Of a DNA stretch of 64,000 nucleotides, positions 48,339 through 53,476 are shown piece after piece. Position 1 is the stretch's first letter. Each line of letters starts with the position of its first letter. This DNA comes from Chitinophagales bacterium (GTDB lineage: Bacteria > Bacteroidota > Bacteroidia > Chitinophagales > Chitinophagaceae), in NCBI GenBank assembly GCA_017303395.1, contig JAFLBN010000003.1, positions 186,001-250,000 on the forward strand. Direction: 5' to 3'. The notes beneath the pieces were generated by a model. That model was not told where the DNA came from. It was given only the letters and a program-made list of their open reading frames with translations, and did not search any database. The translations under genes were made by a program, and so were the position numbers.

Positions 48339-48922
48339 GTGTATTACACGGCCTTGTGGTGTGCGGAGGACAAAGCACACGCATGGGGATGGATAAGAGC
48401 CAGCTACAATATCATGGTGTGCCACAACGCGAATGGCTGTATGAACTACTGCAACCATTGTGCGAGGATGTATATATTTCCTGCAATGCAGAGCAGGCAG
48501 CAGAGATTGGCGATAGCTACCAAACCATTACAGATGCTACTATATACAGAAATATAGGGCCGATGGCGGCATTGTTATCGGCATACAGAATGTTTCCCGA
48601 TGATAGCTTTTTGCTGATGGGTTGCGACTACCCCTACATAAAACGCGGCGATATACAAAAGCTGGTACGCGAGTATAACGGGCGCACTACTGTGTATTTT
48701 AATGATGAGGAGAATGTGTACGAACCACTACTGGGCATCTACACACCCGAGATACGCGATATAATACAGTCTCAGCACGATATGGGGCAATACTCGCTGC
48801 AATGGATACTGAAACAAGCCAATGCACAGAAGATAATACCCGAAGACACAAGCATACTGCAAAGCGTAGATACCCGCATAGGCTATATGGAAGCACTGAT
48901 AAAGCTATCGCAGATATACTAA
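48335..48922 (+). CDS. mobA: MobA-like molybdenum cofactor guanylyltransferase
   Basis: 195 residues. N-terminal nucleotide-binding loop [17 protein letters not shown], followed by [11 protein letters not shown] and [10 protein letters not shown], the MobA order. It transfers GMP (or CMP) to molybdopterin so that formate-dehydrogenase-type enzymes can load bis-MGD cofactor. Starts 4 bp inside the NTPase gene and ends 4 bp inside a convergent DUF2200 gene. The FdhD/FdhF genes 3.7 kb downstream are its likely clients. Confidence 0.88.
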
Positions 48923-49272
48923 GCCCTCAGTATCTTTTCCATCGCTTTGCCTTTTGCCAGCTCGTCTATCAGCTTATCCAGATAGCGCACTTTTTGTATT
49001 AGGGGGTCTGCAATATCCTCTACCCTGTAGCCGCAGATAACACCTGATATCTTCCCAGCATTGGGGTTGAATTTGGGTGCCTGTGCAAAGAAGTTTTCAA
49101 AATCGGTTTTGTTATCTATTTGCTGTTGCAGTGTTGTTGCATCATAGGCCGTCAGCCAGTAGATGATGGTATCTACTTCTTCTTTGGTACGCCCTTTCTT
49201 CTCAGCCTTTTGTATATACAGTGGATAGACGCTTGCAAATGACATCCTGTAAACACGTTGAGTATTGTCCAT
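48919..49272 (-). CDS. DUF2200 protein
   Basis: 117 residues matching DUF2200 ([73 protein letters not shown]). Small helical cytosolic protein of unknown role, common in bacteria. Convergent with mobA, sharing 4 bp at the ends. Confidence 0.88.
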
Positions 49273-49287
49273 AGCTGTGGCAGATGA

Positions 49288-49770
49288 TTAGCGGGTGTTT
49301 TTATACGTTTCAATAATTACGGCTGTCTGGCCGTTTTTCACTTCCGTATGCTTCAGTTTCAGATGGGTAGATGCTATCTCTACAATATCAGACACAGCCG
49401 TGCTACTGCCTGTGCTACGTATTTTCGCACCACCCGTTAATGTTATCTTCAGCTTGCTGTCATTGTCCTGCAATTCCCATTCAAAGTCTGTAACCTGCGC
49501 ATCTTCAGGGCATTTATTACTGTTCTCATTACTAGTGCCCTTGCCCTTGTCGCCAAACTCTATATAATCGTCCTGTTCGCATGCAAGCCAACCGCTGTAG
49601 TAATCGATGGTAGTATCTTTGCCATTATAGCCGGTAGTAAGCGAGGCTGCAGATATCTGCCATCTGCCCGCTTTCAGCTTATTGCCTGTTACAGAATTGT
49701 TTTTGTCTTTCTTACATCCTGCAAACAGCAATGTCAATAATACTGTCGGGAATATCAGTAGCGGTTTCAT
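49288..49770 (-). CDS. Lipocalin-like small lipoprotein
   Basis: 160 residues from ATG 49770. Lipobox LFAGC, then beta strands resembling lipocalin-like DUF families (KLKAGRWQISAASLT, DDYIEFGDKGKG, FEWELQDNDSKLKI). Two Cys (LACEQ, NKCPED) may pair. The sequence upstream (beyond 49771) turns into an intergenic hairpin, which supports this start over the much earlier in-frame one at 49863. Confidence 0.7.
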   Translation of the reverse strand: MKPLLIFPTVLLTLLFAGCKKDKNNSVTGNKLKAGRWQISAASLTTGYNGKDTTIDYYSGWLACEQDDYIEFGDKGKGTSNENSNKCPEDAQVTDFEWELQDNDSKLKITLTGGAKIRSTGSSTAVSDIVEIASTHLKLKHTEVKNGQTAVIIETYKNTR

Positions 49771-49820
49771 AAGATTGCTTTGTATAAAAATATAATACAT
49801 ACTGTTCACAAACAACAAAG

Positions 49821-49870
49821 GTGTTCGAGTGTTCGGATTTCGAACACCTGAACACCTGAACACCTGAACA
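49821..49870. repeat. Hairpin repeat of GTGTTCG/GAACACCT units
   Basis: Left arm with two GTGTTCG units 8 bp apart, then three perfect 8-bp GAACACCT units (49842-49865) and a partial fourth. The arms pair with one another, making a hairpin whose right arm is expanded. The first 34 bp recur exactly at 50294-50327. Confidence 0.85.
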
Positions 49871-49894
49871 ATTTATATTACTACAACTGCCTTA

Positions 49895-50086
49895 CTAAAT
49901 CCCACCAGGGTTTGTCGGGTTGGTGGGTGCTGGCATTGGTGGCATTTCGGGCTTGCTTGGGGGTTGTTGAGGTTCCGTATCGGGTTTTACCTCAGGCGGA
50001 GAAGGTTGTTGAGAAGGCTCGTTGGGTTGTTGTATTGGTTCGTGTGGCTGCTGTGGCACTTCGGGTATCTCTTTCGGCGTTGACAT
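49895..50086 (-). CDS. Proline-rich small protein
   Basis: 63 residues, almost entirely Pro, Gln, Glu and Ser (PQQPHEPIQQPNEPSQQP), with no signal peptide or TM helix. ATG start and stop are clean, but low-complexity composition keeps confidence moderate. It could be an intrinsically disordered peptide or a chance ORF beside the repeat field. Confidence 0.45.
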   Translation of the reverse strand: MSTPKEIPEVPQQPHEPIQQPNEPSQQPSPPEVKPDTEPQQPPSKPEMPPMPAPTNPTNPGGI

Positions 50087-50163
50087 GATGTTGCACAGCT
50101 TGTTTAATAACTGCTTATTAAAGGTACACCTATTACAATTGCCGTCTTAAAATGATATCGGGG

Positions 50164-50263
50164 GTGTACGAAAGTGTACGAGTGTACAGGTGTACGAGTT
50201 CGTACAGTGGGACATTTTTGTACAGGCTGTCCCATTTGTCCCATTGGAACAGTGGGACAAAAA
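50164..50263. repeat. Compound hairpin: GTGTACG and TGTCCCA unit arrays
   Basis: Four GTGTACG units at 8-10 bp steps run into TGTACGAG/CGTACA pairing, followed by a second hairpin of TGTCCCA units against TGGGACA units. The two chemistries of unit (TAC core and CCC core) are joined without a spacer. Confidence 0.8.
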
Positions 50264-50293
50264 CACCTATTCAGATTACATTATAGTTTTTTA

Positions 50294-50372
50294 GTGTTCG
50301 AGTGTTCGGATTTCGAACACCTGAACAAATTCCAGAAATTCCAAGATTCCAATTTTCTAGAATTCTGGAATT
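50294..50372. repeat. Second copy of the 34-bp hairpin plus TTCCAGA-unit hairpin
   Basis: Positions 50294-50327 repeat 49821-49854 exactly. They pass directly into a further hairpin with units ATTCCAGA, ATTCCAAG, ATTCCAA on the left and TTCTGGAA, TTGGAAT on the right. Same design with a different 8-mer. Confidence 0.8.
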
Positions 50373-50383
50373 GGAATATTTCA

Positions 50384-50432
50384 AGGTGTCCCAACTGTCC
50401 CATTTGTCCCATTGGGACAGTGGGACAAAAAC
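50384..50432. repeat. TGTCCCA/TGGGACA unit hairpin
   Basis: Three TGTCCCA units at 9-bp steps (left arm) face two TGGGACA units (right arm), ending in AAAAACG. The right end lies 22 bp from the 3' end of the ApeA-like gene, so it may also serve as its terminator. Confidence 0.8.
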
Positions 50433-50453
50433 GAGTATAATAAATACAAGAAT

Positions 50454-51920
50454 CTAAACTTCCTTAAAATTACCAATATCATCTTGGTAATTTATCACTT
50501 CATAATACATATCTCGAAATGCAGAATAATCTTTTAATTTATCTGAGATGTTTTTAACCTGCAAGATTTTTAAAACGCATACAGTTAATATCATTTTTGC
50601 AACTAGATAATTAATACGAAAATCATCACCTAATGATGTTTGTTGATTAATTCCATGAGATAAATCATTTCTATAAGAAACTGTCTTTTTCAAAAACTCG
50701 TCAAATTTAACTTCTGGCATTGCAACAGAAATAACATCATAAATATCATTAAAAACTTCTTCAATCTTGGTTCTTAAATTATCCTTTATCTTATAAACAA
50801 ATCTATCATTAAACCACTTTTTGAGTTCACTCTTTGGCGGCAAAAAATTCATTATTTCCATTTTTTTTCTATAAAAATCATCTATACTTTTTTTATTATC
50901 AATTCCATTTTTTATTCTTTTTCTATGGTAATCCTCTATTGACTGTATTATATTGAGGAATCTATTATTAAACATGACATTTGTTAATCTAACATCACTG
51001 TCTTGAAACCAATTGTTAGAATCAATAAAATTGTCAATTATCACTTCATATTCTTCTACACAGGAAAACCATAATTTTATTATATCATGTAATTCATTTT
51101 TATCACAGTTCCAATTACTAAAAAGCATACCCCACCGACTTAATGAATTAGTAATATCATTCTGATTAAGCGTGAAATTTGTAACACTCGTTCTAGATAT
51201 ATCACTGCTAATACTACTATCAACATTAAACTTAGAATCATGCATTACATAAAGTATTTTTAAGCTTAATGGCTTACCTGCACTGATTTCAAGTAACTTT
51301 TTAAAACGAATTGCATTCATAATCGAATCCTTAAATTCAACTCCATTTTTATACTCAAATATTATTGACTTTTGATAATACGTTTTAATACTAGTGTTGA
51401 AATCAAGATGTTCCTTTAAAATTTCATCATGAAATATTAGGGTCATGTTATCTGATACAACTAAAGACTCTGTTTTTAGTGTACTCACCCTTTCTTCTTT
51501 ACCATTGCGCCAAATACCACCTCTTCCATTAAGTTTATAATTTACATCATTACCGTCATACCAATTTTGTAATTCACTTATCAAAAAAGATGTTGCTTTG
51601 ATTTTAAAATCTTTTATGTTGTTTACGTGTACCCCATTCAGGTAATACGATATCTTATATCTCAATTTATATAACTCTTCTCCTATCTTCTCCCAACCTT
51701 TGTAATAACATTGATATAAAGTGCAATAGTCCCCATATATTACATGATGGTACCTTTGCATTTTATTAAATTGATTAGGCTTGATATCTATACCATCCAA
51801 ATATTTACTAGTATATAGCGTTAAGTCTATTTCTTTATCAATATGGTTAATAGACAACTCACCGTAAGACTTAATACCATCTGGAAGCCACCATTGTCCA
51901 TGGATTATCTGGGGTTTCAT
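50454..51920 (-). CDS. ApeA-like HEPN protein, candidate anti-phage factor
   Basis: 488 residues, AT-rich compared with neighbours. N-terminus HGQWWLPD followed by GELSINHIDKEIDLTL fits the ApeA N-terminal domain 1; a middle region of unknown fold follows; the C-terminal third is HEPN-like with the RNase motif RNDLSH (Arg417, His422) between long helices. ApeA is a single-gene defence factor of the HEPN superfamily thought to act by RNA cleavage on infection. No partner genes are adjacent. Flanked on both sides by hairpin repeats and placed inside a molybdoenzyme locus, so it looks recently acquired. Confidence 0.72.
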   Translation of the reverse strand: MKPQIIHGQWWLPDGIKSYGELSINHIDKEIDLTLYTSKYLDGIDIKPNQFNKMQRYHHVIYGDYCTLYQCYYKGWEKIGEELYKLRYKISYYLNGVHVNNIKDFKIKATSFLISELQNWYDGNDVNYKLNGRGGIWRNGKEERVSTLKTESLVVSDNMTLIFHDEILKEHLDFNTSIKTYYQKSIIFEYKNGVEFKDSIMNAIRFKKLLEISAGKPLSLKILYVMHDSKFNVDSSISSDISRTSVTNFTLNQNDITNSLSRWGMLFSNWNCDKNELHDIIKLWFSCVEEYEVIIDNFIDSNNWFQDSDVRLTNVMFNNRFLNIIQSIEDYHRKRIKNGIDNKKSIDDFYRKKMEIMNFLPPKSELKKWFNDRFVYKIKDNLRTKIEEVFNDIYDVISVAMPEVKFDEFLKKTVSYRNDLSHGINQQTSLGDDFRINYLVAKMILTVCVLKILQVKNISDKLKDYSAFRDMYYEVINYQDDIGNFKEV

Positions 51921-52005
51921 TAAATTAGTTTTAACTAGAATTTAAATTAGCTATTAGTTTTCTTATTTCCCCAAATGGGAAATGGTATACACGCAAAAAA
52001 CATAC

Positions 52006-52104
52006 TATTCCAACTTTCTAGAATTCTGGAAAATGAGAATTTTGGAATTTCTTAGAAACTGTTCAGGTGTTCACTGTTCGGAACATGAACAGGTGAACAG
52101 GTAC
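52006..52104. repeat. Left part of repeat block upstream of the ApeA-like gene
   Basis: Contains a TTCCAACTTTCTAGAATTCT-type TTC/GAA hairpin (same units as 50328-50372) and then a hairpin of TGTTCAGG/GAACAGGT units (52059-52104). Together with the copies on the other side of the gene, the ApeA-like ORF is bracketed by the same unit types. A BIME-like ATTGC...GCAAT palindrome follows at about 52113-52138. Confidence 0.75.
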
Positions 52105-52154
52105 GTATTGTGACTAGATTGCTTCGTTCCTCGCAATGACGTGAGAGATAGAGC

Positions 52155-52256
52155 GTTTTTGTCCCACTGTCCAACATTGGACACTTGGGACACCCCGAAC
52201 ACAAACTGTTCAGGTGTTCAGGTGTTCGAAATCCGAACAGGTGAACAGTCGAACAC
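52155..52256. repeat. Long direct repeat, copy A (102 bp)
   Basis: Made of a GTCCCACTGTCCAACATTGG hairpin half, an ACCCCGAACAC joint and a TGTTCAGG/GAACAGGT hairpin. It recurs at 52482-52591 with two substitutions and one extra 8-bp unit, so both copies are clearly related. Confidence 0.85.
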
Positions 52257-52261
52257 CACAC

Positions 52262-52410
52262 AAAGCTCCCCTCCTGTTTTTAGGAGGGGATATTGGCGGA
52301 GAGATGCGAAGCATGTCGTTGCCAATCGGGGTGGTTGGCTCGTGGCGAGTGTTAACCTCCTCCCCCTCGCTTCTCTCGGGTACTCCTCCTAAAAACAGGA
52401 GGAGAGCTTT
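52262..52410. repeat. MITE-like inverted-repeat element
   Basis: Ends (52262-52289 and 52382-52410) are inverted copies of an approximately 28-bp sequence around CCTCCTGTTTTTAGGAGG, itself a hairpin, differing at two or three positions. The 90-bp interior has no ORF of note. It sits between the two long direct repeats. Confidence 0.65.
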
Positions 52411-52481
52411 ACATGCCTTGAGATTGCCACGCTATCGCTAGCCCCGATGTATCGAGATGTAACACAATGATGCGAGAGGAT

Positions 52482-52591
52482 GTTTTTGTCCCACTGTCCA
52501 ACATTGGACACTTGGACACTTGGGACACCCCGAACACAAATTGTTCAGGTGTTCAGCTGTTCGAAATCCGAACAGGTGAACAGTCGAACAC
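52482..52591. repeat. Long direct repeat, copy B (110 bp)
   Basis: Copy of 52155-52256 with one additional CTTGGACA unit. It ends 63 bp before the fdhD start, so it also forms part of the fdhD upstream region. No other promoter signal is obvious between 51921 and 52654, a stretch otherwise filled by repeats. Confidence 0.85.
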
Positions 52592-52654
52592 TCTATTTAC
52601 CAATCAGCAAATCAACCAATCAACAAGTCAACTAAACACCGTAAATTAGTGGTA

Positions 52655-53476
52655 ATGAATACCTCAGTATCACATATTGCCATCAGAAAGGTAAGTGCAG
52701 ATAGCATTGCCGATGTAGATGATGTACTGGCAACGGAAGAACCGTTGGAGATACGCATCAACTATGGCAAGGCAGATGCACGTATTCAGAAAAACCTATC
52801 GGTAACCATGCGCACCCCCGGTGCCGATACCGAACTTGCAGTGGGCTTTCTGTTTACAGAGGGTATCATCAGGCAATACAGCGATGTGAAGGGGGCTTTT
52901 ACCATCCCTGATAATATAGTGCAGGTAGTGCTGAAGGAAGATGTAGAGCTGGACCTTGCCAAGCTGGAAAGGCATTTTTACACCACATCCAGCTGCGGTG
53001 TATGCGGCAAGTCCTCTATCAGTGCCATACAAACAGTGTGCAATGTAGATGCAGGTAGTGATGAACTGCTTATCCCCTCATCACTCATCTACAAGCTACC
53101 CGATATGCTGCGTCAGCAACAGGCGGTTTTCGACAGTACAGGCGGCCTGCACGCCTCTGCTTTGTTTGATACCGCAGGAAGTTTAATTTTATTGAGAGAA
53201 GACGTAGGCCGTCACAATGCGCTTGATAAACTGATAGGTGCAGCGCTGCAAGCAGGCATAGTACCGATGGATAATCACGTACTTTTGCTCAGTGGGCGTG
53301 CCAGTTTCGAACTGATACAGAAAGCAGCCATGGCGGGCATCCGCATAGTGGCGGCGGTGGGTGCACCATCCAGTCTTGCAGCACAAACAGCGGCAGAGTT
53401 TGGTATGACGCTTATCGGTTTTCTGCGTGGCGAACGTTTTAATATTTATACAGGCAATCAACGGATAGCAGTATGA
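52655..53476 (+). CDS. fdhD: Formate dehydrogenase accessory sulfurtransferase FdhD
   Basis: 273 residues from ATG 52655; an in-frame GTG two codons earlier is less likely. FdhD signatures: RTPGADTELAVGFLFTEGII, catalytic TSSCGVCGKSSI, FDSTGGLHASALFD and REDVGRHNALDKLIGAAL. It passes sulfur from IscS to the Mo-bis-MGD cofactor of formate-dehydrogenase-like enzymes. Overlaps DUF7009 by 4 bp; the oxidoreductase follows after another 4-bp overlap. Confidence 0.94.
   Translation: MNTSVSHIAIRKVSADSIADVDDVLATEEPLEIRINYGKADARIQKNLSVTMRTPGADTELAVGFLFTEGIIRQYSDVKGAFTIPDNIVQVVLKEDVELDLAKLERHFYTTSSCGVCGKSSISAIQTVCNVDAGSDELLIPSSLIYKLPDMLRQQQAVFDSTGGLHASALFDTAGSLILLREDVGRHNALDKLIGAALQAGIVPMDNHVLLLSGRASFELIQKAAMAGIRIVAAVGAPSSLAAQTAAEFGMTLIGFLRGERFNIYTGNQRIAV

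Follow-up and report, generated by a model that had tools for sequence, protein, structure and literature searches.

Integron cassettes are single genes with a folding palindrome, attC, near the 3' end, its boxes reading RYYYAAC ... GTTRRRY. The DNA uptake sequences of Neisseria and Haemophilus consist of a short word that stands in inverted pairs at gene ends, occurs many times genome-wide and is tied to gene exchange, and cyanobacterial heptanucleotide repeats of the short tandemly repeated repetitive (STRR) type form the P6b stem of the trnL group I intron. Tn7-like transposons bear arrays of inverted repeats at both ends, composed of ~20-base TnsB sites, and carry transposase genes inside together with defense cargo (PMC8649781). 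Here, we describe a field of hairpins built from 8-base units in a 64,000-nucleotide stretch of the genome of a Chitinophagales bacterium (Bacteroidota; Chitinophagaceae; assembly GCA_017303395.1, contig JAFLBN010000003.1, positions 186,001-250,000), hereafter the window, in which position 1 is the first nucleotide of this stretch. We tentatively read the field as the paired borders of a gene-exchange slot, with the hairpins as portable border elements supplying homology for recombination, a reading to which we give somewhat less than an even chance.

Arrays were defined automatically as a 4-base core composed of 3 or 4 different letters, present in 2 copies 8 or 9 bases apart and followed by 2 complement copies. 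By this rule, the window contains 11 arrays, 9 of them within 49,823-52,581 and 2 outside, compared with 0-2 (mean 0.55) in 20 dinucleotide shuffles of the whole window and a mean of 0.04 in 100 shuffles of the region. The preliminary description, which had reported at least nine hairpins within 2.8 kb and almost none elsewhere in the window, is thereby confirmed. Three additional arrays, missed by the strict rule, are visible by eye, with GTAC (50,165-50,206; fold z -2.4), GTCC (50,228-50,259; fold z -3.65; 9-base step) and TTCC (52,006-52,047; fold z -2.0) cores. RNA folding of 12 segments spanning the field gave z values of -2.0 to -5.9, with 0-6 of 200 shuffles folding equally well. In a wider hairpin scan of 20 loci, the arms of hairpins in the islands matched themselves at step 8 at mostly 70%-100% of positions (exceptions 44%-69%), whereas non-island hairpins did so at mostly 20%-60% (exceptions up to 78%). 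The shared grammar recognized in the preliminary description is thus real, although its terms need amendment: the units, said to differ between hairpins, are related, the majority having GTTC, GTAC or GTCC and a few TTCC; the step, given as 8-9 bp, is 8, and 9 for TGTCCCATT; and the complementarity ascribed to the other arm holds at the repeated core, whereas the linkers between cores are often unpaired (GTTC-ACCT-GTTC ... GAAC-ACCT-GAAC). What that description overlooked is the slot with exchangeable cargo that lies between the arrays.

Across the 3.76-Mb genome, the pattern GTTC-N4-GTTC...GAAC-N4-GAAC was found at 12 sites confined to two places of ~3 kb each, C10:45,464-48,615 (8 sites) and C23:235,823-238,581 (4 sites, the field of the window); the reversed control yielded 0. 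In the genus, sampled with 15 genomes, 2+2 arrays with the GTCC core are confined to the same two slots; the genome-wide search covered GTTC cores and the genus search GTCC cores, with GTAC and TTCC left out. Density is thus far from equal across the genome for GTTC arrays, and GTCC arrays are likewise slot-bound. An assembly artifact was rejected, as arrays are also present in a genus member assembled as a single 3.3-Mb contig (G169), where they surround a 145-aa gene at another place. Beyond the genus, the 2+2 GTTC pattern occurs in 9 of 294 genomes of the family, several with a single isolated site. In another genus of the family (L023, 1500-2670), GTTC arrays flank a signal peptidase I gene (Peptidase_S26, 3.5e-31) on either side.

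Comparison of close relatives within the genus revealed that both places are slots with the same layout: a conserved flank, an array cluster, one or more AT-rich accessory genes, an inverted array cluster and a conserved flank, with the cargo differing between genomes. Slot A, that of the window, lies directly upstream of fdhD, except in UBA4414 (G307), where a cytochrome c gene is found between the right border and fdhD. Its left flank is DUF2200/mobA in the present genome (G000), Bacteroidetes bacterium UBA1935 (G306) and G307; in G309, four other genes separate mobA from the slot. All four cargos are different, namely an ApeA gene in G000, a 406-aa gene in G306 and a 203-aa gene in G307, both without a Pfam match, and a 420-aa TonB_C gene in G309. 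Slot B follows a DUF3987 gene and a 102-aa gene, which stand at its left border, and again all five cargos differ: a 629-aa SIR2 gene in G000 (SIR2_2 1.1e-23; ThsA-like 4.2e-25), a TPR gene in G306, FRG plus GmrSD_N in G307, a 261-aa TonB_C gene in G309 and a 243-aa PKD lipoprotein in G265; the borders are kept while cargo orientation varies between genomes. In a comparison of 66 cargo protein pairs, no two cargos of one slot were similar below E 0.001, G306 versus G309 in slot A coming closest (E 0.006); the TonB_C genes that G309 carries in the two slots are related (E 1e-22). Between G000 and G306 or G307, the flanks share pieces of at least 150 bases that are 77%-97% identical, and none of these falls inside the cargo, the G+C content of which is 0.26-0.39 versus 0.41-0.46 for eight loci. 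By their domain matches, 4 of the 11 slot fillings carry cargo of putative defense type (ApeA, SIR2, FRG+GmrSD_N and AbiC), with PADLOC backing the first three and giving a weak AbiP match for AbiC; the remaining fillings are secreted, TPR, TonB_C, PKD or familyless.

The two clusters of a slot are inverted with respect to each other. In slot A of G000, a good part of the right cluster is an inverted copy of the left (the best pieces span 67 bases with 84% identity and 41 bases with 93%), and inverted left-right matches, such as are expected at both ends of a transposon or miniature inverted-repeat transposable element (MITE), were found in 10 of the 11 slot fillings, with lengths of up to 266 bases (83%) in slot B of G000 and, in slot A of G307, of up to 202 bases (76%). 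Direct left-right matches also occur, as expected of palindromes. The order of array kinds in slot A of G307 reads GTTC, GTAC, GTCC, GTTC, TTCC towards the cargo on the left and TTCC, GTTC, (other repeats), GTCC, GTAC, GTTC away from it on the right.

A third place, slot C, was found in G265, where the interval from a 218-aa gene to bshB1 contains three arrays, an AbiC-type gene (putAbiC 3.1e-13) and then a further array. The 218-aa gene and bshB1 are adjacent in 13 other genomes, with no such array within 1.5 kb (G169 is rearranged there); the arrays and cargo of slot C were therefore gained or lost together. Unit number also varies, the left-most array of slot A having 4 GAAC units in G000, 2 in G306, 3 in G307 and 2 in G309. 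Finally, in 5 of 5 genomes an array directly follows the stops of the DUF3987 gene (by 1-18 bases) and of the 102-aa gene (by 4-22 bases), and its core changes between relatives, being GTTC in G000, G306 and G307 and GTCC in G309; G265 has GTTCC-like and GTAC cores, the GTTCC-like one after the DUF3987 stop.

Under the reading that we prefer, a border would be a cluster of short hairpins made of 8-base units, in which the repeated core pairs across the stem and the letters between cores are freer. Two such clusters, mutually inverted, would flank AT-rich accessory genes, one or two in number and often anti-phage; the hairpins would arrive and leave together with the cargo, and the recombination that replaces it would draw on them for homology and perhaps also for folded or fork-stalling structures. 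The exchange itself follows from genome comparison, whereas the role of the clusters as its recombining borders is inferred. Several observations weigh against this reading. In G265, slot B lacks both an inverted match and a clear right cluster, and among the matches listed, the longest is inverted in 8 of 10 fillings and direct in slot B of G309 and in slot C. The arrays do not always mark where the cargo ends, since two unrelated slot B cargos have ~30 bases in common inside the right border. The strict 3+3 GTTC pattern occurs in only 1 of 395 genomes of the phylum, and outside the genus, where 22 locus pairs were compared, 1 of the 10 listed indels of at least 150 bases lies near an array, the arrays there not being insertion borders. 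Moreover, the stretch between the borders contains no recombinase or transposase gene, and no such gene was identified outside it, in an analysis without genome-wide searches for integrase, Tn7 or other transposase families.

The strongest alternative comes into view outside the genus. The strict 3+3 GTTC pattern was recovered from at least 118 stretches of named contigs, and the matches listed include Methylomirabilota, Saprospiraceae, Acidobacteria including Vicinamibacterales, Planctomycetota, Elusimicrobia, Omnitrophota, WOR-3, Chloroflexi and others; these loci were picked by the GTTC pattern, so that they do not sample other cores. Eleven such genomes have 3-78 sites of the 2+2 pattern each, versus 0 in the control, or 1 in one genome. 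The distribution is patchy, and the arrays stand at gene ends, most of them in short spacers just downstream of a stop codon. In Methylomirabilota (57 loci; genes called, as in the other groups, with a home-made caller), 43 of 64 arrays could be placed, with 17 overlapping a called gene and 4 lacking a placed neighbor; 38 lie between co-directional genes, 5 between convergent ones and none between divergent ones, compared with 11 divergent among 184 control spacers of at least 80 bases. The stop-to-array distance is 4-34 bases in 39 of 48 cases there, 0-42 bases in 11 of 12 in Saprospiraceae (12 of 15 arrays placed, 1 divergent) and 1-16 bases in 4 of 6 in Vicinamibacterales; in co-directional spacers, the array is nearer to the stop than to the next start in 29 of 38 (Methylomirabilota) and 7 of 10 (Saprospiraceae) cases. 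Outward of the Methylomirabilota arrays, positions 3-6 are 50%-73% T versus 18% further out. This placement, together with that behind the DUF3987 and 102-aa genes in all five genus members, would suit transcription boundaries, either bidirectional terminators or hairpins protecting 3' ends, which insulate acquired genes while the cargo is swapped by ordinary recombination in the flanks. However, closeness to the stop is partly forced, because the Methylomirabilota arrays fill much of their short spacers. Furthermore, an intrinsic-terminator scan (GC stem followed by a T run) found 3 sites where 2.5 were expected, and no array of the window was among them; the earlier exclusion of CRISPR and terminators is upheld for CRISPR and for canonical terminators. 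In slot A, the right cluster sits between the divergent 5' ends of ApeA and fdhD; cargo stops are within 4-26 bases of the nearest scanned array in 4 of 11 cases, the others having it 82-403 bases away or none found (the strict scan misses some); and inverted clusters of several kinds are not explained by terminators alone. As a substitute for gene-exchange borders, insulation is unlikely, but it may hold alongside them.

Within the distant loci, at least 142 of at least 154 step-8 palindromic arrays contain GTTC, which disfavors GTTC as a mere artifact of the search; the remaining 12 or more are close to what controls give (24 with direct repeats, 3-7 with shuffles). At least 23 step-7 palindromic arrays without GTTC (e.g., GATTGCC/AATCGAA units) were also seen there, several resembling a seven-base kind and others chance. 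The Methylomirabilota unit is GTTCGR plus two free letters. Fourteen pairs of orthologous arrays were compared, 12 of them inside Methylomirabilota and 2 involving an unclassified bacterium, with some loci serving in more than one pair; pooled agreement at the GTTC letters is 98%-100%. The free letters are identical or mostly so in 6 pairs (flank identity 85%-95%) and near the non-orthologous level of 36% and 28% in the other 8 (flanks 76%-90%; e.g., 17% and 17% at 89%). The split between kept and near-unrelated pairs suggests, in this small sample, that some orthologous arrays outside the phylum have been replaced wholesale rather than changed gradually. A process that makes arrays is called for, as the grammar recurs in distant phyla, where some orthologous arrays retain the core while the remainder has been rewritten. 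The preliminary proposal of a process making or expanding palindromic arrays therefore survives in that unit number varies, the core differs between relatives and whole orthologous arrays differ, whereas the link that it drew to REP-associated tyrosine transposases (RAYTs; REP, repetitive extragenic palindromic) finds no support. A broader claim, which we regard as doubtful, would make octamer-step palindromic arrays an undescribed class of bacterial element, written and rewritten whole near gene ends by an unknown enzyme and, in this genus, serving as borders of dedicated slots that swap single defense and surface genes, a cassette system without integron or transposon machinery.

The arrays might also have no role at all, having accumulated passively in weakly constrained acquired DNA as REP- or MITE-like palindromic repeats or as products of slippage. 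Variation in unit number would fit, and so would the other repeats found between the arrays (the CGTCATTGCGAGG...AAGCAATC repeat and the CTCCTGTTTTTAGGAGG repeat). Simple slippage, however, predicts perfect repeats and perfect pairing, whereas in Methylomirabilota pairing of the unit's last two letters is seen in only 33% and 14% of cases; the constancy of GTTC between orthologs also argues against passive accumulation, and neither the inverted order of clusters nor their confinement to slots would be expected. We consider this explanation improbable.

Inverted clusters of a repeated word at both borders of single-gene, often defense, cargo, as well as an empty site with neither arrays nor cargo, could also mark the ends or sites of a site-specific recombinase or transposase acting in trans, in the manner of integron attC hairpins or of Tn7-like ends, which share end arrays of inverted repeats and defense cargo (PMC8649781). 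No such enzyme was found. Y1_Tnp (PF01797), the signature expected of a REP/RAYT system, has 0 matches in G000 and G306, leading us to reject that system for this genome; 13 of 19 searched genomes have a match, four other array-bearing genus members having one to three. No TnsB-type transposase lies between the borders, where the open reading frames judged to be genes are ApeA and a 63-aa gene, and no genome-wide TnsB search was made; no integrase was seen in the loci read, a dedicated search not having been made. At the empty slot C site, the junction is too diverged to reveal whether a target-site duplication is there. With the core differing between relatives after the DUF3987 stop, an enzyme binding site becomes less likely, and action in trans is very improbable. 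A phage origin was rejected as well: the strict 3+3 GTTC and GTCC patterns have 0 matches in viral contigs, the control core CTTG having 1.

In the window, the left flank of slot A is formed by the DUF2200 gene (48,919-49,272, minus strand; Pfam DUF2200, 6e-54), next to which lies a lipocalin-like gene (49,288-49,770, minus strand; Lipocalin_4, 2.7e-06), an insertion seen in none of the other genomes compared. The stretch that holds it (49,288-49,815) separates DUF2200 from the outer left array; it is missing from G306 and G307 and has an array on one side only. The outer left border is the GTTC-type array at 49,823-49,870, used in the comparison of unit number; inside it lies a 63-aa proline-rich gene (49,895-50,086, minus strand) that is present in G306, similar in G309 and absent from G307. 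After the GTAC and 9-base-step GTCC arrays seen by eye, the rule scan places GTTC (50,293-50,327), TTCC (50,327-50,378) and GTCC (50,387-50,427) arrays, the last 26 bases past the ApeA stop codon. The best Rfam match, RF02792 (archaeal sRNA162; 50,286-50,434), scores 30 bits (E 0.013) versus the 78 bits required, a weak similarity probably due to the hairpin. The cargo (50,454-51,920, minus strand; 488 aa; G+C 0.28) is assigned by its domains to ApeA, a putative anti-phage gene of the HEPN family (ApeA_NTD1 1.9e-18; HEPN_Apea 1.1e-14; PADLOC PDC-S58 3.8e-26), with 67.4 bits for the N-terminal domain (cut-off 25.5) and 55.5 bits for the Apea-type HEPN domain (cut-off 24.4). ApeA is counted among HEPN-superfamily proteins (PMC3710099). 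That ApeA travels with the arrays is not favored: the gene was found in 2 of 394 genomes of the family, the second copy being 31% identical. To the right, the TTCC array seen by eye (52,006-52,047) forms the inner border, followed by GTTC (52,060-52,102), GTCC (52,160-52,192), GTTC (52,207-52,255) and GTCC (52,487-52,526) arrays and the outer GTTC array (52,542-52,590), all from the rule scan; fdhD (52,649-53,476, plus strand; FdhD-NarQ 1.5e-69) is the right flank.

Further repeats accompany the arrays. The CGTCATTGCGAGG...ACGAAGCAATC repeat (window 52,101-52,150; L009 7500-7700 and 10160-10620) alternates with them and is inverted across slot B, and the CTCCTGTTTTTAGGAGG repeat (window 52,262-52,410) is inserted in the right border, with 26-base inverted arms that are 96% complementary and 97 bases apart. 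The hairpin CTCTCTTTCTTTTTG occurs at L009 5786-5821 and 14411-14446 in opposite orientations, ~8.6 kb apart, bracketing slot B and its neighbors; matching stretches of ~200 bases are present in L150.

Collectively, these results bear on how single accessory and defense genes move in and out of fixed chromosomal sites when no mobile-element machinery is visible. The question becomes testable because the slot borders can be recognized by sequence alone in several related genomes, including the single-contig one. A search of the open-licence literature with narrow terms returned no description of such arrays, which is weak evidence of their absence from print.

Among known systems, REP elements and bacterial interspersed mosaic elements with their RAYTs likewise are extragenic palindromes near gene ends, but in this genome Y1_Tnp has no match, the arms consist of tandem 8-base units, and the GTTC and GTCC cores are confined to two slots. 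The STRR-type repeats of trnL P6b share arms of degenerate short tandem units with the complement on the other arm, although theirs are 7-base units inside a group I intron, whereas ours are 8-base, intergenic and bordering cargo. DNA uptake sequences resemble the arrays in their repeated short word, inverted pairs at gene ends and link to gene exchange, but they are numerous genome-wide, in contrast to the 12 GTTC sites at two loci found here. Integron cassettes likewise are single genes with a folding palindrome near the 3' end that are swapped at a fixed place; however, attC boxes have the opposite polarity, GTTC coming first and GAAC last in our arrays, and the slots have borders on both sides, in inverted order. 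Finally, the ends of Tn7-like transposons resemble the slots in having intergenic inverted-repeat arrays at both ends of exchangeable cargo enriched in defense genes, but differ in their ~20-base TnsB sites and internal transposase genes, where the slots have palindromic units of 8 bases and lack a transposase gene inside their borders (PMC8649781).

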